DNA from: Rhodocyclaceae bacterium
Lineage (GTDB): Bacteria > Pseudomonadota > Gammaproteobacteria > Burkholderiales > Rhodocyclaceae
Length of the DNA: 35,462 bases
NCBI GenBank assembly: GCA_030682175.1
Contig: JAUXOM010000029.1
Span: forward strand, 1 to 35,462
Direction of reading: 5' to 3'
Shown here: piece by piece, positions 3,660 to 32,884 of the stretch
How positions within the stretch are numbered: position 1 is the first letter of the stretch
How the letters are laid out: each line of letters begins with the position of its first letter
Notes under the pieces: model-generated
Database searches by the model: none
What the model saw: only the letters and a program-made list of their open reading frames with translations
Told to the model about the DNA's origin: nothing
Translations under genes and position numbers: made by a program

Positions 3660-4955
3660 ATGGCCAAACAGCCTCATGCAACCCCCTTACTTGACGAACT
3701 CGAAAAAGGTCCCTGGCCGAGTTTTGTTACGGGTTTAAAGCGTCTCGCCAAGGATAAGGATTACGTCGTCGATGTGCTCGGTCACCTCGAGCATTCTTAC
3801 AAAACCCGCAAAGGCTACTGGAAGGGCGGTACGGTGGGCGTAATCGGTTACGGCGGTGGCGTGATTCCCCGTTTCACCGAAATCAAAAACGAAAAGGGCG
3901 AAGCGACCTTCAAGGACGCCGCCGAGTTCCACACGATTCGCATCATGCCGCCGGCGGGCATGCACTACGATACCAACACCCTGCGTCAGTTCTGCGACAT
4001 CTGGGAGAAGTTCGGCTCCGGCCTGATTGCCATGCACGGCCAGACCGGCGACATCATGATGCAGGGATGCACCAGCGAGAACGTGCAACCGGCCTGGGAC
4101 GAGTTCAACAAGATGGGCTTCGACATGGGTGGTGCCGGCCCGTCCGTGCGCACCGTCATGTCCTGCGTTGGCGCGGCGCGTTGCGAGCAGTCATGCTTCG
4201 ACGAGGCGAAGGTCAATTTCAACGTAACCAACCGCTTCCTCGACGACATCCATCGCCCGGCGCTGCCCTACAAGTTCAAGTTCAAGATTTCCGGCTGCGC
4301 GAACGACTGCATGAACGCCATCCAGCGTTCCGACATGGCCATCATCGGTACCTGGCGCGACAACATGCGCAGCGACGAAAAGATGGCGCGCGCCTGGTTC
4401 GCCAAGCATGGCGTGAATGAACTGGTGAATGACGTCATCAACCTGTGCCCGAGCCGCGCCATACAGCTCAAGGATGCCGGTTCCGTCAGCAAGGACGCGC
4501 ACATCACCGCCGTCAAGGTCAGCGACACCCAGGCCCTGGAAATCAACAACAAGGACTGCGTGCGCTGCATGCACTGCATCAACGTCATGACCGGCGCGCT
4601 GGCCGCTGGCAAGGACAAGGGTACCGCAATCCTGATCGGTGGCAAGAGCCACCTCAAGATTGGCGCGCTGATGGGCACCCTGGTCGTTCCCTTCATGAAG
4701 CTGGATACTGACGAAGACCACGAGAAGCTCGTTGATCTGGCCCAGACCGTCATCGACTTTTTCGCCGAAAACGCCCTGGAGCACGAGCGCACCGGTGAAA
4801 TGATCGAGCGGATTGGACTCGCCAACTTCCTCGAGGGTATCGGCCTTGAGGTTGACGCCAACATGGTATCCAGCCCGCGCTCGAATCCCTATGTCAATAC
4901 TGGCGACTGGGACGAAGAAGTGGCGCGCATGAACGCCAAAAAAGCGGCAGCCTGA
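3660..4955 (+). CDS. dsrA: Dissimilatory sulfite reductase alpha subunit (reverse type)
   Basis: DsrA and DsrB form the cytoplasmic alpha2beta2 siroheme enzyme that, in sulfur oxidisers, converts DsrC-bound sulfane sulfur to sulfite. The 431-residue protein shows the coupled siroheme-[4Fe-4S] ligands Cys169-x5-Cys175 (SCVGAARCEQSC) and Cys213-x3-Cys217 (SGCANDC), then a ferredoxin insert with Cys300-x2-Cys303-x2-Cys306 (CVRCMHC) plus Cys263 (NLCPSRA). Length is normal for the oxidative type. An AAGGAGA site lies just before the ATG. It opens a long operon, with dsrB starting 30 bases downstream. The oxidative assignment rests on context (dsrEFH, dsrL, dsrN, no dsrD). Confidence 0.97.
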   Translation: MAKQPHATPLLDELEKGPWPSFVTGLKRLAKDKDYVVDVLGHLEHSYKTRKGYWKGGTVGVIGYGGGVIPRFTEIKNEKGEATFKDAAEFHTIRIMPPAGMHYDTNTLRQFCDIWEKFGSGLIAMHGQTGDIMMQGCTSENVQPAWDEFNKMGFDMGGAGPSVRTVMSCVGAARCEQSCFDEAKVNFNVTNRFLDDIHRPALPYKFKFKISGCANDCMNAIQRSDMAIIGTWRDNMRSDEKMARAWFAKHGVNELVNDVINLCPSRAIQLKDAGSVSKDAHITAVKVSDTQALEINNKDCVRCMHCINVMTGALAAGKDKGTAILIGGKSHLKIGALMGTLVVPFMKLDTDEDHEKLVDLAQTVIDFFAENALEHERTGEMIERIGLANFLEGIGLEVDANMVSSPRSNPYVNTGDWDEEVARMNAKKAAA

Positions 4956-4985
4956 TCACAATAGCGAAGACGGAGACAATTACAA

Positions 4986-6059
4986 ATGACTCAAGCTCAA
5001 GCGCGCAAGCCGGTCGAGGGTTTCCTCGACAACAAGAAATTCTTGCACCCGAAGTTCGTCGCCAACTATGGCAACTGGAAGTATCACGACCGCCCGCGGC
5101 CTGGCGTCCTGCATCATGTCGCCCATTCGGGTGATCAGGTGTGGACGGTGCGTGCCGGCACCCAGCGGCAGATGGATCACTACACCATCCGCAAGCTGTG
5201 CGACATCGCCGACAAGTTTGCCGAAGGGTTCGTTCGTTTCACCATTCGCTCCAACATCGAATTTTCCGTGTCCTCCGAAGCTCAGGTGGCGCCGCTGATT
5301 GCCGAACTGGAGAAAAATGGTTTCCCCGTCGGTGGCACCGGTCCCTCGGTGTCGATGGTTTCCCATACCCAGGGTTGGTTGCACTGCGACATTCCGGGTA
5401 CCGATGCTTCCGGCGTGGTCAAGTCGATGATGGATAATCTCTACGAGGAATTCAAGAGTGAGGAAATGCCCAACCGGGTTCGCCTCTCCACGTCCTGCTG
5501 CGAGATCAACTGTGGTGGTCAGGCCGATATCGCGGTCATCATCCAGCACACCAAGCCGCCGAAAATCAATCACGAGCAGGTCGCCAACGTCTGCGAGCGC
5601 CCCACCGTGGTTGCCCGTTGCCCGGTCGCGGCGATCCGCCCGGCGCTGGTCAATGGCCGGCCTTCGCTTGAAGTAGACGAGAAGAAGTGCATCTGCTGCG
5701 GCGCCTGTTATCCGCCTTGTCCGCCCATGCAGATCAACGATCCTGAGCATTCCAAGCTGGCGATCTGGGTCGGTGGCAAGAACTCCAACGCCCGTTCCAA
5801 GCCGACCTTCCACAAGCTGGTTATCGCCGGCCTGCCGAACAACGCTCCGCGTTGGCCGGAAGTGAATGCGATCGTCAAGAACATCCTCATGACTTACAAG
5901 GCGGATGCCCGTCCGTGGGAGCGCATGGCTGACTGGATCGATCGTATCGGCTGGCCGCGTTTCTTCGAGAAAACCGGCTTGCCCTTCACCAAGTACATGA
6001 TCGACGATTGGCGTGGTGGGCGTGCAAACCTCAACGCTTCGGCGCACATCCGTTTCTGA
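4986..6059 (+). CDS. dsrB: Dissimilatory sulfite reductase beta subunit (reverse type)
   Basis: The partner of DsrA, 357 residues long. Features include STSCCEINCGG (Cys171, Cys172, Cys176) and WLHCDIPG (Cys134), the siroheme-[4Fe-4S] region, and a ferredoxin domain KKCICCGACYPPCPPMQI (Cys235, 238, 241, 245) with RCPVAAIRP before it. In the known heterotetramer the DsrB siroheme is catalytically active and the DsrC C-terminal arm reaches into the DsrA-DsrB interface. A GGAGA site precedes the ATG. The dsrE start follows the dsrB stop by 13 bases. Confidence 0.97.
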   Translation: MTQAQARKPVEGFLDNKKFLHPKFVANYGNWKYHDRPRPGVLHHVAHSGDQVWTVRAGTQRQMDHYTIRKLCDIADKFAEGFVRFTIRSNIEFSVSSEAQVAPLIAELEKNGFPVGGTGPSVSMVSHTQGWLHCDIPGTDASGVVKSMMDNLYEEFKSEEMPNRVRLSTSCCEINCGGQADIAVIIQHTKPPKINHEQVANVCERPTVVARCPVAAIRPALVNGRPSLEVDEKKCICCGACYPPCPPMQINDPEHSKLAIWVGGKNSNARSKPTFHKLVIAGLPNNAPRWPEVNAIVKNILMTYKADARPWERMADWIDRIGWPRFFEKTGLPFTKYMIDDWRGGRANLNASAHIRF

Positions 6060-6072
6060 GGATGGCACAGCG

Positions 6073-6465
6073 ATGAAGTTTGCAATTTTAGTAAGCGAAG
6101 GGCCTTATACCCATCAGGCCACCGACACCGCCTTCCTGTTCGCGCAGGCGGTGTTGGCCAAAGGTCACGAAATCTTTCGGGTGTTTTTCTACCATGATGG
6201 CGTGTATAACGCCACGCGCCTGACGACCCCGCCGCAAGATGATCGCAATATCGTCAAGCGTTGGACCGAGCTGGCCAAGGCAAACAATCTTGACATGGTG
6301 GTCTGCGTGGCAGCGGCCCAGCGTCGCGGCATCGTCGATGACGGTGAAATGCAGCGTAATGGCAAGGATGCCACCAATCTGGCTGAACCGTTTCGTATCT
6401 CTGGTCTCGGCCAGTTGATCGAAGCGGGCATTCAGGCTGACCGTCTCGTTGTGTTCGGCGATTAA
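6073..6465 (+). CDS. dsrE: Sulfurtransferase subunit DsrE
   Basis: DsrE is the catalytic subunit of the DsrE2F2H2 sulfur-transferase that passes persulfide sulfur to DsrC. The 130-residue protein begins MKFAILVSEGPYTHQATDTA and carries the single conserved Cys78 in DMVVCVAAAQRRG, the persulfide-bearing residue in characterised homologues. The ATG at 6073 was chosen because it gives the normal family start; an in-frame upstream start at 6013 would add 20 non-family residues overlapping dsrB. It is followed closely by dsrF and dsrH. Confidence 0.95.
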   Translation: MKFAILVSEGPYTHQATDTAFLFAQAVLAKGHEIFRVFFYHDGVYNATRLTTPPQDDRNIVKRWTELAKANNLDMVVCVAAAQRRGIVDDGEMQRNGKDATNLAEPFRISGLGQLIEAGIQADRLVVFGD

Positions 6466-6478
6466 GGGAGACGACAGC

Positions 6479-6841
6479 ATGACTACAAAACAATTCATGA
6501 TCGTCAACCGCAAGGCGCCTTACGGCACGATTTACGGCTGGGAAGCGCTTGAGGTTGTCCTGATCGCCGCTGCTTTTGAGCAGGACGTATCGATGGCTTT
6601 CCTGGATGATGGTGTCTATCAGATCAAGAAGGGCCATCAAACCAAAGGCATTGAAATCAAGGCGTTCGAAAAGACTTTTCGCGCTCTTGAGGACTACGAC
6701 GTCACCAAGATTTACGTCGATCAGGAGTCACTGACAGAGCGCGGACTTACCGCGGATGACCTAACCATTCCTGTTGAAGTGCTCTCCCGCGCCGAAATTG
6801 GCAAGCGCATGGAAGAGCAGGACATCGTCCTGGCGTTCTGA
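6479..6841 (+). CDS. dsrF: Sulfurtransferase subunit DsrF
   Basis: DsrF is the structural TusC-like subunit of the DsrEFH complex in the cytoplasm. The 120-residue protein starts MTTKQFMIVNRKAPYGTIYGWEALEV and contains FLDDGVYQIKKG, the usual DsrE/F fold signature. It has no cysteine, in line with a non-catalytic role. The ATG at 6479 has a GGGAG site and is preferred over an in-frame codon at 6449 that would overlap dsrE. The gene sits 13 bases after dsrE. Confidence 0.95.
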   Translation: MTTKQFMIVNRKAPYGTIYGWEALEVVLIAAAFEQDVSMAFLDDGVYQIKKGHQTKGIEIKAFEKTFRALEDYDVTKIYVDQESLTERGLTADDLTIPVEVLSRAEIGKRMEEQDIVLAF

Positions 6842-6851
6842 GGAAAAATAT

Positions 6852-7145
6852 ATGTTGCATATCATCAACAAGTCGCCATACGATCGCCCGGCCCTCGACT
6901 CGGTTCTCAAAACTGGCACAGGCGCGATTCTCCTGATCGAGGATGGCGTGTATGCTGTCGCCAAGGGCGGTGCAGCAGAGCCTAAAGTCAAGGCCGCCCT
7001 GGGCAAGTTCAAGATTTATGCCCTGACGCCTGACATCGAAGCGCGCGGCATTGCCGATCGCGTCACGGATGGTGTCATACAGGTCGACTATGCTGGTTTT
7101 GTCGATCTTGTGGCCGAAAACAAGACCAATCAATCGTGGCTTTAA
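6852..7145 (+). CDS. dsrH: Sulfurtransferase subunit DsrH
   Basis: DsrH (TusB-like) completes the DsrEFH hexamer. The 97-residue protein starts MLHIINKSPYDRPALDSVLK and has the family segment GAILLIEDGVYAVAKGG. It contains no cysteine at all, whereas characterised DsrH has one near residue 20; that residue is known not to be essential. Start chosen at 6852 with a GAGGAAAA site; the longer in-frame reading from 6774 overlaps dsrF. dsrC follows 30 bases later. Confidence 0.93.
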   Translation: MLHIINKSPYDRPALDSVLKTGTGAILLIEDGVYAVAKGGAAEPKVKAALGKFKIYALTPDIEARGIADRVTDGVIQVDYAGFVDLVAENKTNQSWL

Positions 7146-7175
7146 CAGATTCAGAGATTACTCAAGGAGAAAGAA

Positions 7176-7508
7176 ATGGCACTAGAAGTTAATGGCAAGA
7201 CCTACGAAACCGACGAAGAAGGCTACCTGATTGCACTTGGTGACTGGAATGAAGAAGTTGGCAAGTTCCTGGCTCAACAGGAAAGCATCAACCTTACCGA
7301 TGCGCACTGGGAAGTCATCAACTTCCTGCGTGACTACTACACCGAGTTCCAGATTGCGCCCGCCGTGCGCGTTCTGACCAAGGCCATCGGCAAGAAACTC
7401 GGCGCTGACAAGGGCAACAGCCAGTATCTCTACGAACTGTTCCCCTACGGCCCGGCCAAGCAGGCGTGCAAGATTGCCGGCCTGCCCAAGCCCACCGGCT
7501 GCGTTTAA
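7176..7508 (+). CDS. dsrC: Sulfur-carrier protein DsrC with both redox cysteines
   Basis: DsrC is the soluble substrate carrier of the pathway: its C-terminal arm takes sulfur from DsrEFH, presents it to DsrAB and is re-reduced or oxidised by DsrMKJOP. The 110-residue protein ends AKQACKIAGLPKPTGCV, giving Cys98 and the penultimate Cys109, the two residues that form the trisulfide or disulfide. Other family marks are INLTDAHWEVINFLRDYY and YLYELFPYGPAKQ. An AAGGAGA site precedes the ATG. A strong hairpin follows the gene, which may allow dsrC to be expressed at a higher level than the genes after it. Confidence 0.97.
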   Translation: MALEVNGKTYETDEEGYLIALGDWNEEVGKFLAQQESINLTDAHWEVINFLRDYYTEFQIAPAVRVLTKAIGKKLGADKGNSQYLYELFPYGPAKQACKIAGLPKPTGCV

Positions 7509-7520
7509 GCAGACGGTGAC

Positions 7521-7551
7521 CAGCGGAACAGCTTAGTGAGCAGTTCCGCTG
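7521..7551 (+). promoter_or_regulatory. Intercistronic hairpin after dsrC
   Basis: A perfect 9-base stem, CAGCGGAAC (7521-7529) pairing with GTTCCGCTG (7543-7551), with a 13-base loop, begins 12 bases after the dsrC stop. No T-run follows, so it looks like an mRNA-stability or processing element rather than a standard terminator. The dsrC-dsrM gap (155 bases) is the largest in the dsr operon. Confidence 0.55.
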
Positions 7552-7663
7552 TGGAATTAATGACGTGACACGGCGTCAGAATCGCAGCTTCAATTAGTTG
7601 GCTGGTTTCTGCGCCGGGTTAAGTCACGGGTTTGATCGCTATATTCGCCGTGGTGCACTACCA

Positions 7664-8386
7664 ATGACAATGTTCCTCGCGATCCTGTTTTACCTCGCCT
7701 TCGTGATTTTCGTCGCAGGTGTAGCCTACAAGATCTACGACTTCGCACGCACGCCAGCGCCCCTGTCGATTCCGACGACACCCGCGCCGACCACCAAGGG
7801 TGGCGTAGCGCTTCGGATGGCTCGGGAAGTGGTCTTCTTTGAAAGCCTCTTCAAGGCTAATTTGTGGATTTGGCTGTTCGGCTGGCTGTTTCACATGGCC
7901 CTCCTGCTGGTGCTGATTCGTCATTTGCGTTACTTTACCGAGCCGGTCTGGAACTGGGTAGCCATACTTCAGCCTTTTGGTCTCTACGCCGGCTTTGCCA
8001 TGGCGGCCGGGCTTGCCGGGCTTTGGGCGCGCCGCATCCTGGTTGAGCGCATCCGCTACATTTCCACACCTTCCGATCACCTGATGCTGGTCCTGCTGCT
8101 CCTGATTGCGTTGTCCGGTCTGGGCATCAAGTTCTTCATGCATACCGACATCACTGCCGTCAAAGTCTTCTTCTTGGGACTCATGATGTTCGACATTCAG
8201 CCATTGCCGTCGCATATCGGTCTGTATGTCCATTTGCTGCTAGTTGCCCTGCTGATGATCATATTCCCCTTCAGTAAGTTGCTGCATGCACCAGGCGTAT
8301 TTTTCAGCCCGACCCGCAACCAGGCAGACAATCCACGGGAAGTACGCCATCTGGCACCGTGGGCCGCCCAGATCGAGAAGAACTGA
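7664..8386 (+). CDS. dsrM: DsrM, membrane b-type cytochrome subunit of DsrMKJOP
   Basis: DsrM is the NarI-like di-heme b membrane subunit that exchanges electrons between the quinone pool and DsrK. The 240-residue protein shows about five hydrophobic helices (roughly residues 2-22, 65-85, 100-125, 143-163 and 185-210) with histidines at their ends (HMALLLVLIRHL, HVHL-like HIGLYVHLLLV, KLLHAPG) suited to heme binding. The ATG at 7664 (MTMFLAILFYLAF) starts right at the first helix; the upstream in-frame start at 7598 would add 22 residues unlike the family. The ribosome site is weak. dsrK begins one base after its stop codon. Confidence 0.93.
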   Translation: MTMFLAILFYLAFVIFVAGVAYKIYDFARTPAPLSIPTTPAPTTKGGVALRMAREVVFFESLFKANLWIWLFGWLFHMALLLVLIRHLRYFTEPVWNWVAILQPFGLYAGFAMAAGLAGLWARRILVERIRYISTPSDHLMLVLLLLIALSGLGIKFFMHTDITAVKVFFLGLMMFDIQPLPSHIGLYVHLLLVALLMIIFPFSKLLHAPGVFFSPTRNQADNPREVRHLAPWAAQIEKN

Positions 8387-8387
8387 C

Positions 8388-9920
8388 ATGGCTGATCAAG
8401 CATTCAAGATTCCAGAGTACCGCGAATTTCCGACGATCCCGGCTCTCGTTCCGGGCGCGATGGCTCACTCCAAGCCATATGTCGCCAACGAGAAGATCCA
8501 GCAGGAAATGGGTTTCCCCGGTCAGCTTGTCGATAACTGGGAAGAAAAGGCCATCGAGAAATTTGGCGAGTTGCTGGGCAAATACCGCTCGCTGAAGGTC
8601 TTCATGGACTCCTGCGTGCATTGTGGCGCTTGTACCGACAAGTGCCATTATTTCATCAGCACGGGCGACCCCAAGAACATGCCAGTGGCGCGCCAGGACC
8701 TGATGAGAAGCGTTTATCGGCGCTATTTCACCTTGCCTGGAAAGCTGTTTCCGAGCCTCGTTGGCGCCCGCGATCTGACCAAGGAAGTCCTTGACGAGTG
8801 GTTCTCCTATTTCTGGCAATGCTCGGAATGCCGTCGTTGCTCCGTGTTTTGCCCGTATGGCATTGACACCGCCGAAGTCACCATGGCTGCCCGCCACATC
8901 ATGGATTCGGTCGGCTATGGGCAGAAATATTCCAACGAAATCATTCTCAAGCTCAACAAGATCGGTAACAACCTCGGCCTGCCCGGTCCGGCGCTTGAAA
9001 ATACCCTGGAAGGCCTGGAAGAGGATGTCAAGGATGATACGGGTGTCGATGTCAAGTATCCACTCAACGTCAAGGGTGCTGAAGTCCTGCTGGTCACGCC
9101 TTCCGCGGATTTCTTCGCCGAGCCGCACATCGAGAGTCTGATTGGCTACGGCAAGGTATTTCACGCCGCCGGGATTTCCTGGACGCTGTCTTCCTACGCT
9201 TCTGAAGCAGGTAACTTTGGCCTCTTCAACGGAAGTTACGAGCATATGCGCGAGGTTGCCCTGCGCGTTCGAAAAGCTGCCCTGGAACTCGGCGTCAAGC
9301 GTATCGTCGTTGGCGAGTGCGGCCATGCCTGGCGCGTGGCCTACGCTTTCTGGAATACGCTTGCCGGCCTGGGCGCTGGCGCCAAGGATCCGTTCGCCAT
9401 CGAACTGCAGAATCAGCTCGACCCGCGTCATATGCAGCCTTCGCATATCTGCGAATTTACTTGGGACCTGATCCAGCAGGGGCGCCTGAAGTTCGACAAG
9501 GAAAAAAACGATCACCGTATCATTACCTTCCACGACTCGTGCAACGTAGCGCGCGCCTCGCGGATGGGCAATTTCCCTGGCGGCCAGTTCGAGATTCCGC
9601 GCAACGTCATCAAGGCGGTGGCAAATAACTACGTCGAGATGGCACCGGACACAATTTGCGAGAGTACCTTTTGTTGCGGCGGTGGCGGTGGTGTGCTCAC
9701 CGATGACTTGATTGAACTACGCGTCAAAGGCGCCTTTCCCCGCATGGAGGCCTTGAAGCAGGTTGCCGACGGTCAAGGCGTGAATTTTATGGCGACGATC
9801 TGCGCCATTTGCAAAGCGCAATTCAGCAAGGTGCTTCCCTATTACGGCTTTGATATGCGCCTGGTGGGCGGTATTCACCAGTTGGTCAGTACGGCCATTC
9901 GCCTTGGCGATGAGCAGTAA
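8388..9920 (+). CDS. dsrK: DsrK, HdrD-like iron-sulfur subunit of DsrMKJOP
   Basis: DsrK is the cytoplasmic catalytic subunit thought to act on the DsrC disulfide/trisulfide. The 510-residue protein has two [4Fe-4S] motifs, CVHCGACTDKC (Cys76-Cys86) and CSECRRCSVFC (Cys145-Cys155), followed by HdrD-type CCG elements: HDSCNVARASRMG, STFCCGGGGG and TICAICKAQF, which bind the special cluster in heterodisulfide reductase-like proteins. The ATG at 8388 gives the family start MADQAFKIPEYREF. It follows dsrM almost without a gap, implying coupled translation. Confidence 0.95.
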   Translation: MADQAFKIPEYREFPTIPALVPGAMAHSKPYVANEKIQQEMGFPGQLVDNWEEKAIEKFGELLGKYRSLKVFMDSCVHCGACTDKCHYFISTGDPKNMPVARQDLMRSVYRRYFTLPGKLFPSLVGARDLTKEVLDEWFSYFWQCSECRRCSVFCPYGIDTAEVTMAARHIMDSVGYGQKYSNEIILKLNKIGNNLGLPGPALENTLEGLEEDVKDDTGVDVKYPLNVKGAEVLLVTPSADFFAEPHIESLIGYGKVFHAAGISWTLSSYASEAGNFGLFNGSYEHMREVALRVRKAALELGVKRIVVGECGHAWRVAYAFWNTLAGLGAGAKDPFAIELQNQLDPRHMQPSHICEFTWDLIQQGRLKFDKEKNDHRIITFHDSCNVARASRMGNFPGGQFEIPRNVIKAVANNYVEMAPDTICESTFCCGGGGGVLTDDLIELRVKGAFPRMEALKQVADGQGVNFMATICAICKAQFSKVLPYYGFDMRLVGGIHQLVSTAIRLGDEQ

Positions 9921-9963
9921 CCCGCGCACACACAAATAAACAACGATTACTACGGAGACGACA

Positions 9964-11943
9964 ATGTCAGCGACCACTGAAATTCAGACCGAAAAATTGA
10001 CCTTCCGCAAATACAAGGAGGGCGATACGCTTGAATACAAGCGCATGCAAGATAAAATCTTTCAGGCCAGCTGGTCTTACAAATGTCCTACATACGTGCA
10101 GTCCACGCCCCCTTGCCAGGGCTCCTGTCCGTCTGGCGAGGATATCCGCGGCTATCTGAATATCGTGCGTGGCGTCGAGAAACCTCCGCTTGGCGCCGAT
10201 GGCAAGCCTGTCATGCCGATGGAAGAGTATGCCTGGCGTCGCCTTACCGAAGCCAACCCGCTGCCCGCCGTCATGGGACGGGTATGCCCGGCACCCTGCG
10301 AAACCGGTTGTAACCGCAACATGGTTGAAGATCACGTCGGCATCAACTCCGTTGAGCATTTCCTCGGCGAGTATGCAATCAAGAATAACCTGCAATTCAT
10401 CAAACCTACCAAGCTTACTGGCAAGAAGGTTGCGGTACTTGGTGGTGGTCCCGCCGGTCTGTCGGTAGCCTATCAACTGGCCCTCAAGGGACACAGCGTC
10501 ACGATCTTTGACGACCATGAATATCTGGGTGGCATGATGCGATACGGCATTCCCGGCTATCGTACTCCGCGCAATGTTCTCGATGCAGAGATCCAGCGCA
10601 TCATTAATTTGGGTGTCGAGGTCAAGCTGAAGACCAAGGTTGGCGTCGACATCAGCATGGAACAGGTTAACAAGGACTTCGATGCGGTATTCCTTGGCTT
10701 GGGTGCTCAAGGTGGCCGTGCCCTGCCTGCCGCAGGTGCGGAGAATACTCCCAACGTCGTTACCGCCACGGCATTCCTCAAGGCCTACAACGATGGTCGC
10801 CTGCAAGCTGTGGGGCGCAATGTCGTTGTTGTCGGCGGTGGCGATACGTCGATGGACGTGGCGACTGTCGCGCGTCGCCTTGGCCATATCGAAAACGCCA
10901 AACCGACTGATTTCGAAGCAGCCATCGCCGGCCAATTGGCACAGGACGTTGCCGATATCTCAATGCGCAAGGGTGCCGATGTGGTCCTGACCTCGGTTTT
11001 CCCAATCGACAAGATGCTGGCCAGCAAGGGCGAACTCGAACACGCCCAGTCTGAAGGCATCGATATCATGGGTGGCTGGATGCCGGTTGCCGTGGTTAAA
11101 AGTGCCGATGGACGTGCCACGGCACTGCGCGTTTGCCAATGCGAAGCCAAAATGGTTGGTGCCAATCTCGAGATCAAGAAGCTCGAAGGTACGGAAAAGG
11201 ACCTGCCCGCCGATTTGATCGTTTCAGCCATCGGTCAGACGCTTGACCTCACCGGTCTTGAAGTATTCAGCAACGGCAAAGGTGGCGTCAATACCGACCG
11301 TAGCTATCAGGTGCAGGGCAAGCCTGGCGTATATGCCGGTGGTGACGTACTGCGCCCGCATCTGCTGACTACCGCCATCGGACATGGCGCCATTGCGGCT
11401 GACGGCATAGACCAGTTCCTGATGAGTGGTGCCGAATCAGTCCGTCGTCCGAAGATTGACGTGCATGTGTTCGACCTGATGCGCAAGTATGTCGAGAAAG
11501 GCATTGCCGTCGAGGAAATCAAGGAGCCGTTGCGCGGTACGAGTGACTCCAAGGGTGCTGTGCATAACTACGACAACCGCTCGGACCGTTATGTGATTAC
11601 CCATAAGGAACTGTTCCTCGGGCACTTCCAATACACCCCACGCAACATGCGCCACATCACGCACCTCAACAAGGAAACGGCGCTGGGCAACTTCATTGAG
11701 CGACTTGATCCGCTCGACGACAAGCAGGTTGTCGCCGAAGCCAAGCGCTGCATGAGTTGTGGCCTGTGCTTTGAGTGCGATAACTGTGTGGTGTATTGCC
11801 CGCAGACTGCCGTCAGCCGCGTCAAGAAAACCGAGGCAACCACGGGGCGTTATGTGACAACCGACTACGATAAATGTATCGGTTGCCATATTTGCCGCGA
11901 TGTTTGCCCGACCGGCTACATCCAGATGGGTCTGGGCGAGTGA
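9964..11943 (+). CDS. dsrL: DsrL, FAD/iron-sulfur NAD(P)H oxidoreductase
   Basis: DsrL is a GltD-like flavoprotein that, in sulfur oxidisers, exchanges electrons between DsrAB and NAD(P)(H). The 659-residue protein has an N-terminal cysteine domain (CPTYVQSTPPCQGSCPSGED, Cys41-Cys55, and CPAPCETGC near 108-116), an FAD-binding VLGGGPAGLSVAYQL (160-170 region), a second nucleotide site VVVVGGGDTSMDVA, FAD motif GVYAGGDVLRP, and a C-terminal two-cluster ferredoxin (CMSCGLCFECDNCVVYC and CIGCHICRDVCPTGY). The C-terminal ferredoxin is what separates DsrL from ordinary GltD. A GGAGACGACA site precedes the ATG. Confidence 0.96.
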   Translation: MSATTEIQTEKLTFRKYKEGDTLEYKRMQDKIFQASWSYKCPTYVQSTPPCQGSCPSGEDIRGYLNIVRGVEKPPLGADGKPVMPMEEYAWRRLTEANPLPAVMGRVCPAPCETGCNRNMVEDHVGINSVEHFLGEYAIKNNLQFIKPTKLTGKKVAVLGGGPAGLSVAYQLALKGHSVTIFDDHEYLGGMMRYGIPGYRTPRNVLDAEIQRIINLGVEVKLKTKVGVDISMEQVNKDFDAVFLGLGAQGGRALPAAGAENTPNVVTATAFLKAYNDGRLQAVGRNVVVVGGGDTSMDVATVARRLGHIENAKPTDFEAAIAGQLAQDVADISMRKGADVVLTSVFPIDKMLASKGELEHAQSEGIDIMGGWMPVAVVKSADGRATALRVCQCEAKMVGANLEIKKLEGTEKDLPADLIVSAIGQTLDLTGLEVFSNGKGGVNTDRSYQVQGKPGVYAGGDVLRPHLLTTAIGHGAIAADGIDQFLMSGAESVRRPKIDVHVFDLMRKYVEKGIAVEEIKEPLRGTSDSKGAVHNYDNRSDRYVITHKELFLGHFQYTPRNMRHITHLNKETALGNFIERLDPLDDKQVVAEAKRCMSCGLCFECDNCVVYCPQTAVSRVKKTEATTGRYVTTDYDKCIGCHICRDVCPTGYIQMGLGE

Positions 11944-11995
11944 CAAGGTTTCTGGGGCGCGAGTGAATCTAGTGAATCGAGGGGACAGGAGACTG

Positions 11996-12409
11996 ATGGT
12001 GCGACTGCTTGCGTTGATGGCTTTTCTGATAATGGGAGCGGTCGCGTCATTTGCGATTCATGCCGCTGGCGTACCTAAACCAATGGTGAAGGTTGAAGGT
12101 TCCGGTCAGTGTATTGCCGCAACCGAGGAAATGCGCATAAACCACATGAACATGCTCGGCCATCAACGCGACCGTTCCCTGCGTCAGGGTATTCGTGGCG
12201 AAAAGGCGAGTCTCATCGGGTGTGTTGACTGTCACGCCAGCAAGTCGACCGGCTCCGTGCTTGGCAAGGATGGCTTCTGCGAAAGCTGCCACGCCTTTGC
12301 CGCCGTCAAGGTTGACTGCTGGCAATGCCACCAACCCAAGGCCAACTTCAAGGCTGCGGGTAACGCAGGTGCTACTGGAGCCGCAGGCGCTGTTGGAGCC
12401 AAACCATGA
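11996..12409 (+). CDS. dsrJ: DsrJ, periplasmic triheme cytochrome c
   Basis: The 137-residue protein has an N-terminal membrane anchor or signal (residues 1-24) and three heme c sites: CVDCH (76-80), CESCH (95-99) and CWQCH (108-112). Cys39 in GSGQCIAATEEMRINHM corresponds to the unusual cysteine heme ligand of DsrJ. It is the periplasmic electron-carrying part of DsrMKJOP. The tail is Gly/Ala-rich (AGNAGATGAAGAVGAKP), likely flexible. The start at 11996 has an AGGAG site; the longer reading from 11900 overlaps dsrL. Its stop overlaps dsrO by four bases (ATGA). Confidence 0.94.
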   Translation: MVRLLALMAFLIMGAVASFAIHAAGVPKPMVKVEGSGQCIAATEEMRINHMNMLGHQRDRSLRQGIRGEKASLIGCVDCHASKSTGSVLGKDGFCESCHAFAAVKVDCWQCHQPKANFKAAGNAGATGAAGAVGAKP

Positions 12410-13158
12410 CTGAACCAAACGATAAATCACGCCGTGGCTTTCTCGGCGCAGCTGCAGTCGGCGCCGCCGGCCTGGGGGTTGCGGCAATTGCACCGGGTTT
12501 GCACCTGATCGAGGTATCGCAAGCCAGCGCGCCGGGCAAAGGCGCTTCCAGCAAGGTCCGCTGGGGCATGCTGATCGATACGACCAAGTGCGCCAGCGAT
12601 TGCAATGCCTGCGTCAATGCTTGCAATAGCGAAAATGGCATCAATGAGGTACTCAAGGATCCGCGGCAAGGTTCGCAGTGGATTCGCAAGATCGACCTCA
12701 AGGATTCCAAGAGCGGCATTACCCATTCGCTGCCGATGATGTGCCAGCACTGCGAGCATCCGCCCTGCGTCGATGTCTGCCCGACGCACGCCTCGATGAA
12801 GCGTGCCGACGGTATTGTCCTGGTTGATCGCCATACCTGCATCGGCTGCCGTTACTGCATGCTGGCTTGCCCTTACAAGGCACGCTCGTTCGTGCACATG
12901 ACGCTCACCGAGCAAAATCCGGAGGTGCCGCGTGGTCAGGGTTGCGTTGAGTCCTGCACCTTCTGTGTGCACCGAGTGGATAAGGGCCAGATCCCGGCTT
13001 GTGTCGAGGCCTGTGCCAACGCCGAGCATAACGCGATGCTCTTTGGAGATCTCAATGATCCGAACAGCGCAATCGCGCAACGGATCGCCGAGGTTAAGAC
13101 CACCCAGGTGCGCGCCGATCTCAAGCTCAATGTCGGCGTGCGCTACCAAGGAATCTGA
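12406..13158 (+). CDS. dsrO: DsrO, Tat-exported ferredoxin-like subunit
   Basis: DsrO is the periplasmic iron-sulfur subunit that pairs with DsrP. The 250-residue protein opens with a twin-arginine signal (SRRGFLGAAAVGAAG, cleavage probably after SQASA). It then has four clusters of cysteines: CASDCNACVNAC, CQHCEHPPCVDVC, CIGCRYCMLAC and CTFCVHRVDKGQIPACVEAC, as in PsrB/DmsB-like ferredoxins. The ATG overlaps the dsrJ stop (ATGA), and dsrP follows 5 bases after its stop. Confidence 0.95.
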   Translation: MTEPNDKSRRGFLGAAAVGAAGLGVAAIAPGLHLIEVSQASAPGKGASSKVRWGMLIDTTKCASDCNACVNACNSENGINEVLKDPRQGSQWIRKIDLKDSKSGITHSLPMMCQHCEHPPCVDVCPTHASMKRADGIVLVDRHTCIGCRYCMLACPYKARSFVHMTLTEQNPEVPRGQGCVESCTFCVHRVDKGQIPACVEACANAEHNAMLFGDLNDPNSAIAQRIAEVKTTQVRADLKLNVGVRYQGI

Positions 13159-13163
13159 CGGCC

Positions 13164-14369
13164 ATGATGATCCAGCAACAGACAAAAACAGTTGACGGCG
13201 CATTTTATTTCGCGTTGGCGGTAGGCGGCCTGATCAGTGCCATCGGCGTTGCAGCGGCGTTGTACATGGAAATCATGGGCCACCAGGTGAGCGGCATGAA
13301 CAATCAGATTTTCTGGGGTCTGCCGCATGTCTTCGGCATCTTCCTGATTGTCGCCGCTTCGGGAGTACTCAACGTCGCCTCGATTGGCTCGGTGTTTGGC
13401 AAGAAGGCCTACAAGCCGCGCGCCCCCCTCTCAGGTCTGCTGGCAATTGTTCTGCTGGCGGCCGGTCTGGCCATCATCATGCTCGATCTTGGACGTGCGG
13501 ATCGTGTGCTGATCGCGGCAACCCACGTTAATCTGACGTCGGTGTTTGGCTGGAACATGATTCTGTATCCGGTGTTCTTCGGCCTGGTCGGTTTGTACGT
13601 CTGGACCCTGATGGATCGCAGCAAGAACCAGTATTCAAAGGCTGTCGGCACGGCAGCTTTTATCTGGAGGCTGGTGATGACTACCGGCACTGGTTCGATT
13701 TTCGGTTTCATCGTTGCCCGGCAGGCCTATCAGTCGGCAATTCTGGCGCCGATGTTCATCATCCTGTCCTTTGCCTGGGGCCTGGCGATTTTCCTGATCG
13801 TGCAGGAAATCATGTATGCAAGGAGCAAAATGGAGCTGCATCCGCAGCTGCGCGCCCGGATGAAGAATCTGCTCGGTGTGTTCATCGGCGCGGCGATGTA
13901 TTTTGTTGCGGTTTATCACCTAACCAACGTCTACTACGCCAAGCAGATTGAGTTCACCCATTTCATTCTGGTTAGTGGCGGAATTTTCCCGCTGTTGTTC
14001 TGGGGTGGTTTCGTCCTGCTCGGCTCGGTCGTTCCGCTGCTCCTGCTGTATGCCCCTGGCTTTAGCGCGAACAAGGGTTCCGTGACTGCCGCCTCCTATC
14101 TGACTGTCGCCGGCGGACTTTGCCTGCTCTTCGTCTTCATCATTGGCGGGCAGGCTTATCCGATGGACATGTTCCCCGGGATGCAGGTTACCAGCAGTTT
14201 CTTTGACGGCAAGATCGACAGCTACACGCCGAGTCTGCCGGAAATCCTCCTGTCGGTGGGTGGCTTCGCCATCGCTTTCACCATGACGCTGGTGGGCGTG
14301 CGCGTGCTCCGTTTCATGCCGCAGGACGATGTTGCCAAGCTGCAGTCGGCCGGGTATCTGCACGATTAA
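13164..14369 (+). CDS. dsrP: DsrP, NrfD/PsrC-like integral membrane subunit
   Basis: DsrP is the polytopic membrane protein that connects DsrO/DsrJ to menaquinone or ubiquinone. The 401-residue protein is dominated by about ten hydrophobic segments, beginning at FYFALAVGGLISAIGVAAAL and ending at LLSVGGFAIAFTMTLVGVRV, typical of the NrfD family. There are no cofactor cysteine motifs. Start at 13164 (MMIQQQTKTV); a second ATG directly after is possible. It is the last of the DsrMKJOP complex genes; dsrN follows 38 bases later. Confidence 0.94.
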   Translation: MMIQQQTKTVDGAFYFALAVGGLISAIGVAAALYMEIMGHQVSGMNNQIFWGLPHVFGIFLIVAASGVLNVASIGSVFGKKAYKPRAPLSGLLAIVLLAAGLAIIMLDLGRADRVLIAATHVNLTSVFGWNMILYPVFFGLVGLYVWTLMDRSKNQYSKAVGTAAFIWRLVMTTGTGSIFGFIVARQAYQSAILAPMFIILSFAWGLAIFLIVQEIMYARSKMELHPQLRARMKNLLGVFIGAAMYFVAVYHLTNVYYAKQIEFTHFILVSGGIFPLLFWGGFVLLGSVVPLLLLYAPGFSANKGSVTAASYLTVAGGLCLLFVFIIGGQAYPMDMFPGMQVTSSFFDGKIDSYTPSLPEILLSVGGFAIAFTMTLVGVRVLRFMPQDDVAKLQSAGYLHD

Positions 14370-14383
14370 TTTCCCTGACGGCG

Positions 14384-14399
14384 GAGCGCTAAAGCGTTC
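14384..14399 (+). promoter_or_regulatory. Weak hairpin between dsrP and dsrN
   Basis: GAGCGC and GCGTTC form a six-pair stem with one G-T pair around a TAAA loop, followed by GGTTTTAT. It might cause partial termination before dsrN but is too weak to call a terminator. Confidence 0.3.
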
Positions 14400-14407
14400 G
14401 GTTTTAT

Positions 14408-15778
14408 ATGCATCGCTTTCTCGTCTCTGCCGCGCACAAGTCGTCCGGCAAAACCACACTTAGCATCGGGCTGACGGCTGCCCTGCAGAGGCGTGGCCTG
14501 ACTGTGCAGCCTTTCAAGAAAGGGCCGGACTATATCGATCCGCTCTGGCTGGGTCTGGCGGCCCGGCGCGGTTGCCGCAATCTTGATTTCTTTCTCTCGC
14601 CCCACGAAGAAATTCGCACCCAGTTTGCGCGCGGCCATGCAGCCGATGTTTGCCTGGTCGAGGGCAACATGGGTCTATTCGACGGCCTCGCGCTCGATGG
14701 CAGCGACAGCAATGCCGCTCTGGCACGCCTGCTCGATCTGCCGGTAGTTCTGGTGCTAGACACGCGCGGCATGACGCGCGGCGTCGCCCCGCTGATCCTT
14801 GGTTATCAGGACTTCGATCGCAACCTGCGCATCGCCGGGGTCATTCTCAACCGCGTGGGCGGGCGTCGTCATGAACAAAAACTGCGCAGCATCATCGAGC
14901 ATTACACGGATGTGCCGGTGCTCGGCGCCGTACAAGAAGATGCAGAACTTGCGCTGGTCGAGCGTCATCTGGGCCTGATGCCGGCCAATGAGGCCGCTGA
15001 AGCTGGCCGCATGGTCGCTACAATCGCCGAGCGCGTTACCAGTCAGGTCGACCTGGAGCGGCTGCTGGTGCTTACGGCTACATCAGTGCCGCTGCCCGCG
15101 CCGCCATTGGTGGTCCCCACCGGCGAACCGCCGCTGCGTATCGCCATCGCCCAGGACGCTGCCTTCGGGTTTTATTACACAGATGATCTCGATGCACTCG
15201 TAGCCGCCGGGGCAGAGCTGATCCCTTTCGACACCCTCAAGGATAATCGCCTGCCTGCCTGCGACGCCTTGTTTATTGGTGGTGGATTTCCTGAGTCGTT
15301 TCTTGACGAGCTTGCGGCCAACACCGCCCTGCGGACTGACATTCGCGTTGCCATAGAGCGTGGCTTGCCGACCTATGCCGAATGCGGCGGTCTGATGTAT
15401 CTGTCCAACAGCATCACTTGGCACGGCAAGACCCGGCCCATGGTCGGCATTATTGATGGCGCGGTGACGATGCACAAAAAGCCGGTTGGCCGCGGTTACG
15501 TGATCCTGGAACCACTGAGCGCCCATCCTTGGAATTCCACGGACCGCCCGCATATTCATGCACACGAATTCCACTACTCAGAAATTCTCGGCCTGCCAGA
15601 AAATACTCGTTTCGCCTATGCCGTGCGCCGCGGTCATGGTGTTGATGGCCAGTATGACGGGATCGTGCTGCACAATCTTCTGGCCTCCTATGCACATCTG
15701 CGCGCCACCGCCGGATGCGACTGGACGTCGCGTTTTGTTCAATTTGCCCGGTCCTGCCGGGCCCAACCTCACCCTTGA
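14408..15778 (+). CDS. dsrN: DsrN, siroheme amidase (cobyrinate a,c-diamide synthase-like)
   Basis: DsrN amidates siroheme to the siro(heme)amide used by DsrAB; it belongs to the CbiA/CobB glutamine amidotransferases. The 456-residue protein has an ATP-binding P-loop AHKSSGKTT (10-17), KGPDYIDP and VEGNMGLFDG in the synthetase half, and a class I glutaminase-like half with ECGGLMYL (Cys near 326) and HEFHYSE. Length and motif order match CobB. In a dsr operon this points to siroheme, not cobalamin. dsrR follows 11 bases later. Confidence 0.94.
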   Translation: MHRFLVSAAHKSSGKTTLSIGLTAALQRRGLTVQPFKKGPDYIDPLWLGLAARRGCRNLDFFLSPHEEIRTQFARGHAADVCLVEGNMGLFDGLALDGSDSNAALARLLDLPVVLVLDTRGMTRGVAPLILGYQDFDRNLRIAGVILNRVGGRRHEQKLRSIIEHYTDVPVLGAVQEDAELALVERHLGLMPANEAAEAGRMVATIAERVTSQVDLERLLVLTATSVPLPAPPLVVPTGEPPLRIAIAQDAAFGFYYTDDLDALVAAGAELIPFDTLKDNRLPACDALFIGGGFPESFLDELAANTALRTDIRVAIERGLPTYAECGGLMYLSNSITWHGKTRPMVGIIDGAVTMHKKPVGRGYVILEPLSAHPWNSTDRPHIHAHEFHYSEILGLPENTRFAYAVRRGHGVDGQYDGIVLHNLLASYAHLRATAGCDWTSRFVQFARSCRAQPHP

Positions 15779-29777: not shown

Positions 29778-30230
29778 TCAGGGTGCGTTGGCGTAGGATT
29801 CCTTGGCTTCGCGTGCCTTGGCGGCCTCGTCTTCGGAATAGGCCTTGCCGGACCACAGCATGCTGTAGGCGATTTCTTCGTTGCCGTTCTCGCACAGTTC
29901 AAGCACCTGCTGGAACAGCGGCTGGAAGGTCTTGCTGCGGTGTGACGCTTCATGCTCCTTGAAGGAGCGCCAGAAGGTGATGATGAGCGCCTCGCGGTCC
30001 TTGAGCTTGCTCTTGACCGCCTTGCCGATGGTGCTGCCTTCGTTGGATACCTGACCACTGTTCAGGACGACCATGCCGCCGACAAAGCCGGTGTCGGAGT
30101 GATAAGTCTTGACGTTCTCGCAAAGCATGGCAACGCGCTCTTCGAGATCATCGACGGTGAATTCCGGTTTGAGAATGATGCGATTGACGGTGACGATGCC
30201 GTCGCTGTCGAAGCCGGGAATGAATGACAT
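29778..30230 (-). CDS. Sulfur oxygenase reductase-like half-length protein
   Basis: The 150-residue protein resembles the iron-containing N-terminal half of sulfur oxygenase reductase (about 310 aa). TFWRSFKEHEASHR parallels the SOR segment TFWKDWKDHEEMHR, keeping the His-x3-His iron ligands (His93, His97). Cys37 lies 56 residues before His93, as Cys31 does 55 before His86 in Acidianus SOR, and GFVGGM matches GFVGFQ. Candidate third ligands are Glu114, Glu118 or Glu119. SOR disproportionates elemental sulfur with oxygen; activity here is inference. The ATG at 30230 has an AGGAG site; an in-frame codon at 30260 would add ten residues. A generic dimeric alpha-beta-barrel protein is the alternative. 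Confidence 0.65.
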   Translation of the reverse strand: MSFIPGFDSDGIVTVNRIILKPEFTVDDLEERVAMLCENVKTYHSDTGFVGGMVVLNSGQVSNEGSTIGKAVKSKLKDREALIITFWRSFKEHEASHRSKTFQPLFQQVLELCENGNEEIAYSMLWSGKAYSEDEAAKAREAKESYANAP

Positions 30231-30880: not shown

Positions 30881-30974
30881 GCAGCGCCGACCGACACTGC
30901 GAAGGCGGTAGAATGCCGTGCTTGGAGAACAGACCACCGTTAAGGTGGCTTCGACCACAGAGGAGCATAATTTC

Positions 30975-32216
30975 ATGAGTGCCACCGCTACGCCCCAGGC
31001 CGTCGTGCCGGAAGTGGATAGCGACGAGCGCACGCGACTGCTGGCGCTCAATGTCTTTTCCGAAGTATCGGCCAATCTGGTCGATGAAGATGATGTCGAG
31101 GAACTGCTCGGGCGCTTCCTCGGCACCATGCTGCGCCTGGCCAAGGCCGATGCGGGTGCCGTGCGCGTGCTGACCACTGATGGCCGGCATTTGCGCCTGG
31201 TGGCGGCACGCGGACTGCCGCACGAGGTCGTCGAGCAGGAGCGTCTCGTGTCGATCGATTGCGGACAGTGCGGCGTCGCCGTGCGTGACAATCATTGCCG
31301 CTACGAAATCGACCTGCACGCCTGCGCGGTACGCACCAAACATCCCTATTTCGACCGCGACTGCAAGGCGATGGTGGTAGTCCCGCTGCAGCATGGCAGC
31401 AAGTTGCTGGGTGTTTACAACCTGTTTTTATCCGAGCGCTTCGAACTGCCCGAGGAACTGGTCCTGTTATTTCGCTCGATTGGCGAACACCTGGGCATGG
31501 CGCTGGAAAACACGCGTCTCAAGCGCGAGAACCTGCGCATCACGTTGATGAACGAACGGCAGATGATGGCCGCCGAAGTGCATGATTCACTGGCGCAGGC
31601 GCTGTCCTACATGAAAATGCGCATGGCCTTGCTGGTGGACTCGATCAGCGAGTGCGATGAAGAGAAAGCCGGCAAATACGCCGGCGATATCGGTCAGGCG
31701 CTCGATGATGCCTATATCCAGTTGCGCGAACTGCTGGCACAGTTCCGCAGTCGCATGGATCCGCTCGGCCTGCAGCAGGCGCTGAGGCGGCAGGCGGACA
31801 GTTTTTTCGACCGCACCGGCATTGCGCTCGAATTCGACAATCGCGTCGTTGACCTGCGCCTGTCGGTCGACCAGGAGGCACAGGTGTTCTTCATCGTGCA
31901 GGAGGCGCTGGCCAATGTGCGACGTCACTCCAAAGCGACGCAAGCCTGGCTGACCCTGGAGGGCACCTGCGACCATTACATCATCACGGTGGATGACAAT
32001 GGGCGCGGCGCCCAGGGTTTTTTCCCGATTGCCAACCGTACCGGCGATTCAGACGAACTTCCCTATGAGCGCGACCACTTTGGCTTGTCGATCATGCGCG
32101 AGCGTGCCCGCCTGGTCGGCGGGCGCGTCGAAATGGTCAACCTGCCGGAGCGCGGTTTCCGCGTGCGGCTGACTTTCCCGGCGATCAGCCCATCCAACCC
32201 CAAGACAGCGGCATGA
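30975..32216 (+). CDS. GAF-domain sensor histidine kinase (NarX-like, Cys-rich GAF)
   Basis: The 413-residue cytoplasmic kinase has no transmembrane helix. A GAF domain (about 25-180) contains five cysteines, Cys96, 99, 108, 117 and 130 (DCGQCG, NHCRYE, HACAV, RDCKAM). It is followed by a HisKA_3 phospho-acceptor AAEVHDSLAQALSY (His203) and an HATPase domain (QEALANVRRHSKAT, VDDNGRG, GLSIMRERA). This is the NarX/NreB type kinase core. The cysteines might bind an iron-sulfur cluster or act as redox sensors. AGGAG lies before the ATG at 30975; an earlier in-frame codon at 30918 is less likely. Its stop overlaps the regulator gene (ATGA). Confidence 0.88.
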   Translation: MSATATPQAVVPEVDSDERTRLLALNVFSEVSANLVDEDDVEELLGRFLGTMLRLAKADAGAVRVLTTDGRHLRLVAARGLPHEVVEQERLVSIDCGQCGVAVRDNHCRYEIDLHACAVRTKHPYFDRDCKAMVVVPLQHGSKLLGVYNLFLSERFELPEELVLLFRSIGEHLGMALENTRLKRENLRITLMNERQMMAAEVHDSLAQALSYMKMRMALLVDSISECDEEKAGKYAGDIGQALDDAYIQLRELLAQFRSRMDPLGLQQALRRQADSFFDRTGIALEFDNRVVDLRLSVDQEAQVFFIVQEALANVRRHSKATQAWLTLEGTCDHYIITVDDNGRGAQGFFPIANRTGDSDELPYERDHFGLSIMRERARLVGGRVEMVNLPERGFRVRLTFPAISPSNPKTAA

Positions 32217-32884
32217 ACGACACCAAACCCATCCGTGTTGTGCTGGTCGATGACCATACCCTGTTCCGCAAGGGGCTGGCCGAGTTGCTTGAGCAGCGCA
32301 GTTCGATCAACATCGCCGGCATTGCCGGCAATGGCGACGAGGCGATCGAATTGCTGAAAACCATCGAAGTGGACGTGGTGATCACCGATCTCAACATGCC
32401 GCCACACGGCGGTCTGGCCTTGCTGCGAAAAATACGTGCCGAGGGCTGGAAGTTTCCGGTATTGGTGCTGACCGTCAGTGACGCCAAGGATGACCTGGCC
32501 AACGCGATGGGTGCCGGTGCTCAGGGATATCTGCTCAAGGATATGGAACCCGACGACGTCGTGGATGCCGTGCAACGCGCGGTGCGCGGTGAAACGGTGG
32601 TGGCACCGGCCATGACCCTGAAACTGGTGCATTTGCTGCAGAGTGGGGGACAGCCGCCCAAGGCTGAAGCCTTGCACCAGCTGACGCCGCGTGAGCGGGA
32701 AATTCTCGAACACCTGTCGCGCGGCTTGTCGAACAAGGCTATTGCGCGGGAGCTCGACATCAGCCATGACACCGTCAAGTTGCATGTGCGCCACGTTCTG
32801 GCCAAACTGAATCTCACCTCGCGCGTTGAAGCCGCGGTGTTTGCCGTCGAGCAAAAAGCCGGACAGCAATACAGCAAACCCTGA
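32213..32884 (+). CDS. NarL/FixJ-family response regulator
   Basis: The partner of the preceding kinase, overlapping it by four bases. The 223-residue protein has a receiver domain with VLVDDH, the phospho-acceptor Asp59 in VVITDLNMPPHGG and the Lys of LLKDM, and a LuxR-type helix-turn-helix, LTPREREILEHLSRG with ISHDTVKLHVRHVLAKL. It resembles NarL, but no nitrate reductase gene is in the window, so the target is unknown. Confidence 0.93.
   Translation: MNDTKPIRVVLVDDHTLFRKGLAELLEQRSSINIAGIAGNGDEAIELLKTIEVDVVITDLNMPPHGGLALLRKIRAEGWKFPVLVLTVSDAKDDLANAMGAGAQGYLLKDMEPDDVVDAVQRAVRGETVVAPAMTLKLVHLLQSGGQPPKAEALHQLTPREREILEHLSRGLSNKAIARELDISHDTVKLHVRHVLAKLNLTSRVEAAVFAVEQKAGQQYSKP

Follow-up and report, generated by a model that had tools for sequence, protein, structure and literature searches.

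The window analysed here is the whole stretch of 35,462 nucleotides of contig JAUXOM010000029.1 (assembly GCA_030682175.1, Rhodocyclaceae bacterium). On its minus strand lies an open reading frame of 150 codons plus a stop codon, encoding a protein of 150 residues, P0001, that resembles one half of a sulfur oxygenase reductase (SOR). A previous description made without database searches (the sequence-only reading) had delimited this frame and placed Cys37, His93 and His97 in it, and both the limits and the positions turned out to be exact (Table 1). Since copies 74-83% identical to P0001 are present in 18 other genomes among 199 of the same family, P0001 corresponds to a gene and not to a chance frame. 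Altogether, 26 of these 199 genomes gave a match, 19 of them (including that of the window) at an identity of at least 74% and seven at 35-44%. The genome of the window carries two copies, P0001 and a second one, 38% identical, on another contig (C125). A promoter scan revealed no promoter-like site, and a terminator scan returned one terminator-like site versus 1.1 expected.

The attribution of the protein to an organism with a Dsr system also holds, as the window contains a dsr cluster with dsrA (3690-4940) and dsrB; dsrN is 14 kb away from the P0001 gene. A second, diverged gene of the DsrC/TusE family (TIGR03342, 82.6 bits) was found upstream of the cluster, at 2051-2389 on the minus strand. 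The dsrA of the window scores 493 bits, similar to those of five genomes with the half-length gene from outside the class (474-521 bits), whereas most dsrA genes over the cut-off in the class sample described below score 540-660; it possibly represents a different dsr lineage.

Table 1. Features identified in the window and the evidence on which each assignment is based.
Feature	Position	Strand	Basis
P0001, SOR-like protein of half length (150 aa), subfamily A	29778..30230	-	ORF, Pfam, profile, predicted fold
Cys37 codon, equivalent to catalytic Cys31 of SOR	30120..30122	-	Sequence and hhalign
His93 codon, equivalent to iron ligand His86 of SOR	29952..29954	-	Sequence and hhalign
His97 codon, equivalent to iron ligand His90 of SOR	29940..29942	-	Sequence and hhalign
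Cys113 codon, paired with second Cys of SOR CxxC	29892..29894	-	BLASTP
Glu119 codon, equivalent to iron ligand Glu114 of SOR (E-x-x-Y)	29874..29876	-	BLASTP
NUDIX-like gene, divergent neighbour of the P0001 gene	30317..30880	+	Label by eye, no family search
NarX/NarQ-type sensor kinase-like gene	30918..32216	+	33% identical to L175 NarQ/NarX-like kinase
NarL-type response regulator-like gene	32213..32884	+	46% identical to L175 regulator, 58% to L156 regulator
dsr gene cluster (dsrA ... dsrN)	3660..15778	+	dsrA and dsrB identified; remaining genes assigned by tblastn queries from L175 or from their position

Relation to sulfur oxygenase reductase

The likeness to SOR had been pointed out in the sequence-only reading, which proposed a search with the SOR profile PF07682 as a check. 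SOR was the only Pfam family matched by P0001 at E-values up to 10 (E 0.0012), with a score that stayed below the cut-off (18.3 versus 25 bits). Similarly, the only NCBIfam match was SulOxRed (NF047630; E 8e-4), with 18.4 bits versus a cut-off of 400. When 91 members of the family were scanned, PF07682 was matched by 58 at E-values up to 1 (best 1.1e-4), and the ABM family PF03992, for which P0001 itself gave no match at E up to 10, by 25 (best 6.9e-4), so that profile searches lean towards SOR over ABM. A profile built from the 91 members and run against the sequences in the PDB retrieved SOR 6m35 in first place (E 3.6e-5), followed by triosephosphate isomerases at chance level (E 0.086 and above).

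The same profile was aligned with hhalign to four SOR sequences, namely two PDB chains and two sequences from a metagenome-assembled genome (MAG) of Thioalkalivibrio paradoxus (L138 and L141). L138 matches PDB 6qpa at E 2e-101; both MAG sequences remain under the NCBIfam cut-off for SOR (232 and 170 bits, respectively, versus 400). The alignment covered residues 12-117 with 24% identity (E 1.2e-6, score 48.3), with Cys37 facing the catalytic Cys of SOR and His93-Glu94-x-x-His97 facing its HExxH motif. When each half of SOR was evaluated separately, the score was 47.6 for the N-terminal half and 18.8 for the C-terminal one, while 20 column-shuffled controls gave 10.1-17.4 and one reversed control 15.2. 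Pairwise BLASTP of P0001 with L141 was weak (E 0.001), and paired Cys113 with the second Cys of the CxxC motif and Glu119 with the Glu preceding a Pro. By these comparisons, the P0001 family shares homology with the N-terminal, iron-binding half of SOR and does not match its C-terminal half. The resemblance is thus above chance in Pfam, in NCBIfam, in the profile search of the PDB and in the profile-profile score against shuffles, and the suggestion of a half-SOR is borne out by a match restricted to the iron-binding half; the finding holds on stronger grounds than the sequence-only reading had given it.

In the available part of the study on the enzyme of S. tokodaii, the iron is described as held by His86, His90 and Glu114, and no activity was detected after changing any of these residues or Cys31 to Ala, while changes in Cys101 and Cys104 lowered activity about tenfold (PMC7398979). 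The distance from the Cys to the first His, which had been put forward as matching that of SOR, is 56 in P0001 and 55 in SOR (Cys31 and His86 in the numbering of the same source). A counterpart of the third ligand, absent from the earlier description, is the invariant Glu119. The GFxG, TxW, HExxH and E-x-x-Y motifs and the catalytic Cys are all in register with SOR (PF07682, NF047630; PDB 2cb2, 6m35, 6qpa). The differences are as clear: SOR has about 310 residues in two related halves, whereas P0001 has 150 (123-158 in relatives that are complete within their contigs) and no second domain; the pair Cys101/Cys104 of the SOR pocket is replaced by a single Cys (Cys113) at another spacing; and the distance from the second His to the Glu is 22 in P0001 and 24 in SOR. 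SOR is further characterised by a hollow 24-mer assembly and by O2-dependent disproportionation of sulfur. As P0001 is too short, lacks the second domain and scores below both curated cut-offs, it should not be classed as SOR, and the half-length protein is not a bona fide SOR.

Conservation of the site was recounted without any motif filter in 228 cellular rows (183 distinct sequences). Wherever a row reached the position, Cys37 was kept in 182 of 182, His93 and His97 each in 181 of 181 and Glu119 in 182 of 182. Among 30 viral rows (26 distinct) the figures were 25 of 25 for Cys37, one row being short of it, and 26 of 26 for each of the other three. Cys113 was present in 179 of 182 cellular and 24 of 26 viral sequences, i.e. 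lost in three and two, respectively. Rows short of a position are fragments at contig ends (L161, L162 and L261). It should be taken into account that the profile used to find these rows derives from alignment A2, itself built on a set filtered by a Cys motif, and that some of the peptide patterns used for retrieval contained Glu119 (Cys37 or Glu119 for viral rows), while His93 and His97 were in none. The 121 distinct rows obtained through pattern-free genome searches gave 120/120 for Cys37 and Glu119 and 119/119 for His93 and His97. Alignment A2 comprises 91 of 92 selected rows, L152 having been omitted because it is cut by the contig end, and is invariant (91/91) at N16, C37, V40, K41, F49, G52, V54, G59, S62, G65, T85, W87, H93, E94, S96, H97, F102, F106, E119, Y122, L125, W126 and G128. 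The sequence-only reading had named as its refutation a placement in another dimeric barrel family, with no conservation of Cys37, His93 and His97 among homologues; such a lack of conservation was not found. Judged from these alignments, counterparts of the SOR iron ligands and of the catalytic Cys are all present in the family; the metal itself is inferred.

A first structure model based on 17 sequences (pLDDT 74) was superseded by a second AlphaFold2 model of P0001 based on 91 (mean pLDDT 92.9, pTM 0.82), with strands at 12-20, 49-56, 80-87 and 118-123, helices at 26-44, 90-98, 103-110 and 133-147, and a short helix at 63-66. The predicted fold is that of one ferredoxin-like unit of a dimeric alpha+beta barrel, from which a homodimer is inferred; SOR is a fused dimeric barrel. 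In Foldseek searches against the PDB, the first ranks were occupied by ABM-type proteins (FasU, SnoaB, TT1380 and others), which are single subunits of dimeric barrels, and no SOR was among the first 50 rows with either model; against viral models nothing was found below E 0.001. ABM-type barrels (PF03992; SnoaB, 3kg0) share the single ferredoxin-like unit with P0001 (TM by target 0.87-0.88), but their family gives a weaker sequence match than SOR, SnoaB is titled cofactor-independent, in contrast with the putative iron site of the half-length family, and ABM-type barrels are not known to be tied to sulfur oxidation.

Two subfamilies could be distinguished: A, of about 150 residues and with an EHEASHRS-type motif, and B, of about 126-140 residues in complete cellular rows, with an EHEKSHAD-type motif and 31-39% identity to P0001. 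The A-type rows in A2 are at least 66% identical to P0001, including that (L144) of a genome of about 1 Mb (G482). In a tree of 110 rows, A rows were split from B and viral rows by a fully supported branch, and viral rows appeared among B rows, a placement that requires no fewer than three label changes on branches with good support; these changes between cell and virus may be gains or losses. The four SOR rows were on very long branches, so the tree cannot be rooted and does not decide between an ancestral and a reduced origin of the half-length form.

Occurrence in sulfur oxidizers, gene neighbourhoods and viral contigs

In a sample of 369 genomes of the class, the half-length gene was found in 72, in at least two of them (G423 and G294) only as contig-end fragments, and dsrA in 119 (E below 1e-30; 112 over the cut-off and 7 partial). 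Both genes were present in 63 genomes, the SOR-like gene alone in 9, dsrA alone in 56 and neither in 241 (Fisher p 5.7e-28, uncorrected for kinship). Eight of the nine carriers without dsrA had soxB over the cut-off, the exception being a genome 75% complete, and dsrA or soxB was present in 71 of the 72 carriers. Among sampled genomes, soxB was detected in 3 of 30 with neither the half-length gene nor dsrA, and in 17 of 20 both with the two genes and with dsrA only, so that it does not discriminate carriers among dsrA genomes; it is also present in the genome of the window. Since 56 of the 119 dsrA genomes lack the half-length gene, Dsr does not depend on it as a component. In a sample of the phylum, 8 of 299 genomes carried the gene, and dsrA was present in all seven carriers checked, five of which are outside the class. 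Four carriers have genomes of about 1.0-1.1 Mb (G369, G482, G577 and G514). PF00124 was matched in none of 78 carriers and in none of the 56 genomes with dsrA only. The sample therefore contains no phototrophs and is uninformative as to an absence of the gene from anaerobic phototrophs.

The subfamily A gene was also found in ten named Thioalkalivibrio strains (L045, L050, L066, L070, L072, L073, L075, L076, L080 and L101). In the available part of a study of this genus, none of the ten, compared by strain name, is among the six strains listed with rDsr, an Hdr-like operon is reported in all but two of the genomes, and one of the ten, ALMg11, is listed with full-length SOR (PMC6382920). Full-length SOR was not found in two of the ten strains, nor in Thiobacillus denitrificans RG. 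The T. paradoxus MAG carries two full-length SOR homologues together with the half-length gene; one of the two, L141, is divergent (35% identical to L138; genome G595). A scan of 41 related genomes with PF07682 gave no matches, but the controls and P0001 were also silent, so absence is not demonstrated.

Clustering of 80 named loci indicated that the A gene stands alone, with neighbours that are lineage-specific only, and the idea of an operon partner was dropped. A NUDIX-like relative adjoins it in 20 of the 80 loci, in 18 of them together with NarX-like genes, in betaproteobacterial or unassigned records. The dsr genes were 3.7 and 6.1 kb away from the A gene in two cases (L077 and L053). 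B genes show stronger links to sulfur gene clusters. In one locus (L175, genome G532), the B gene lies inside the dsr operon, flanked by dsrP and dsrN and in the same orientation as these, in the order dsrA-B-E-F-H-C-M-K-L-J-O-P-[B]-N, where NCBIfam named dsrA, the DsrC family, a PRK12771-type protein at the DsrL position, DsrP (below cut-off) and a CobB-type protein at the DsrN position, the remaining labels being assigned by gene order. The family of this genome includes 27 carriers among 60 genomes, with loci that span about 10 kb or less on each side, and in three further loci from these carriers (L191, L198 and L208) the B gene is found 0.9-3.1 kb past dsrP and in the same orientation. 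In another locus (L156) it is located between a dsrL-J-O-P-N-cobA run and aprB. The B gene in the genome of the window (C125) is divergent, at 183 bp, from a molybdoenzyme gene (L163:9660-13142) that we read as SoeA-like, NCBIfam giving only related families below cut-off, PhsA first. Elsewhere, a B gene follows a cco-like cluster in which CcoG was named (L164), and another has a convergent DsrC-like gene at 28 bp (L178). Most of the remaining B loci examined lack links of this kind. NarXL-type genes were observed near A or B genes in three settings (window 30317-32884; L175:791-3240; L156, about 5537-7280), and this proximity could be a regulatory link or a coincidence.

No match to P0001, a subfamily A query, was obtained at 1e-5 in collections of plasmid and phage records. 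In one scan of IMG/VR, relatives were identified on 30 contigs, with 32-43% identity across the aligned part; these copies (L232-L261) are B-like and have the site conserved. Neighbouring genes were named with PHROGs on four of five contigs queried (L249, L245, L254 and L236; the protein of L233 was unmatched), the names being baseplate wedge subunit, tail proteins, DnaB-like helicase, DNA polymerase, primase and HNH endonuclease. Relatives of such structural or replication genes are present on 16 of the 30 contigs, two of the matches being weak (24% and 28%), and the viral status of the remaining contigs, apart from L236, rests on the IMG/VR classification. To call these contigs "T4-like" would be a reading. 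By Pfam names, an IscA-like gene is present on 12 of the 30, an IscU-like gene on two and DsrC on three. A 374-residue protein (L260:8346-9467), with no Pfam match at 1e-5, has relatives on nine of the 30 contigs, in eight of which its gene starts 3-5 bases downstream of the SOR-like gene; by eye it looks like the alpha subunit of a ring-hydroxylating oxygenase in which no Rieske motif can be recognised. Among the genes carried by sulfur phages, one study names dsrA, dsrC/tusE, soxC and soxD, and its main text contains no word beginning with "oxygenase" (PMC8190135).

Proposed function and significance

The half-length protein most likely works like the catalytic half of SOR, an activity that is inferred. 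The gene, the prediction of its fold, the homology, the invariance of the site and the association with sulfur oxidizers are demonstrated, as is, in the case of B-type genes, the association with sulfur gene clusters. On this basis we propose, with a probability of around one half, that P0001 acts in cytoplasmic sulfur oxidation as a homodimeric sulfur (persulfide) oxygenase with non-heme iron, in which metal, dimer and reaction are inferences. The alpha+beta barrel dimer would hold one Fe(II) per subunit on His93, His97 and Glu119; Cys37 would bind sulfane sulfur as a persulfide or polysulfide, and the iron would activate O2, the terminal sulfur being oxidized to sulfite. This oxidation could feed or relieve a reverse-Dsr or Hdr-like route in the cytoplasm. 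Given its occurrence with Dsr and, according to the Thioalkalivibrio literature, with the Hdr-like system, we read the protein as an accessory to the oxidation of sulfane sulfur in the cytoplasm and not as a Dsr subunit. The type of reaction proposed is that of ETHE1-like persulfide dioxygenases (sulfur dioxygenases), which convert sulfane sulfur and O2 into sulfite; their fold is that of metallo-beta-lactamases, unlike that of the half-length protein, and Pfam and NCBIfam scans of the family gave no match to persulfide dioxygenase.

The site could also be non-catalytic, in an iron/thiol sensor or persulfide carrier in which Cys37 would hold sulfane sulfur and the iron would signal O2 or the redox state, either to a regulator or to partners in the Dsr/Hdr systems. 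A small standalone protein would suit such a role, as would the occurrence of NarX-like kinases close to the A gene in 18 of 80 loci, the NarXL-like genes near B genes (L175 and L156) and the DsrC-like gene beside one B gene and on three viral contigs. We nevertheless consider it unlikely: the kinases at these sites are merely 29-34% identical, so the NarX link may be a coincidence, and the entire catalytic set of SOR is invariant, which we infer to be stricter than a sensor needs.

After it in plausibility, and doubtful as well, comes an O2-independent function as a sulfur transferase or reductase, or as a factor for the supply or repair of iron-sulfur clusters, where the same site would carry out persulfide chemistry without oxygenation. 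Iron sites with three ligands and open positions are typical of O2-activating enzymes, which speaks against this. The IscA- and IscU-like genes on viral contigs would fit such a function, as would the reductase activity that SOR itself has according to the available part of PMC7398979, but IscA and NifU are in any case common on sulfur phages, as the accessible text of PMC8190135 reports. That P0001 is instead a dimeric barrel enzyme of the ABM type with an organic substrate, resembling SOR through the shared superfamily alone, is very improbable, in spite of the first Foldseek matches and the weak PF03992 matches, in view of the more numerous and better matches to SOR, the invariant Cys/His/His/Glu set at SOR positions and the near restriction of the gene to genomes with dsrA or soxB.

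If the oxygenase function proposed for P0001 is extended to the family, a broader picture can be drawn, to which we give only tentative credence: a single-domain, homodimeric family of SOR-type oxygenases working beside reverse-Dsr and Hdr-like oxidation in sulfur oxidizers of the beta- and gammaproteobacteria and of some other proteobacterial groups, sometimes in the dsr operon, surviving in genomes of about 1 Mb and serving as an auxiliary gene of tailed phages, which would be the living counterpart of the half that was duplicated into SOR.

No description of a half-length SOR relative or of a viral SOR-like gene was found in the open-licence literature (subscription papers and preprints were outside the scope of the search). 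SOR is regarded as rare: in the survey of 75 Thioalkalivibrio genomes it is reported in three strains, under a criterion of more than 30% similarity and more than 50% query coverage (PMC6382920), which a half-length relative at about 24% identity would miss. A small unnamed protein of many sulfur oxidizers and some phage-like contigs, related to the iron-binding half of SOR and with its key residues kept, may be an overlooked enzyme of sulfur oxidation. Should its function be a different one at the same site, it would show what the iron site of SOR can do in a minimal protein. If sulfane sulfur is indeed oxidized with O2 by this protein, lists of sulfur-phage genes may lack an auxiliary gene, and current models of cytoplasmic sulfur oxidation would be missing an enzyme.
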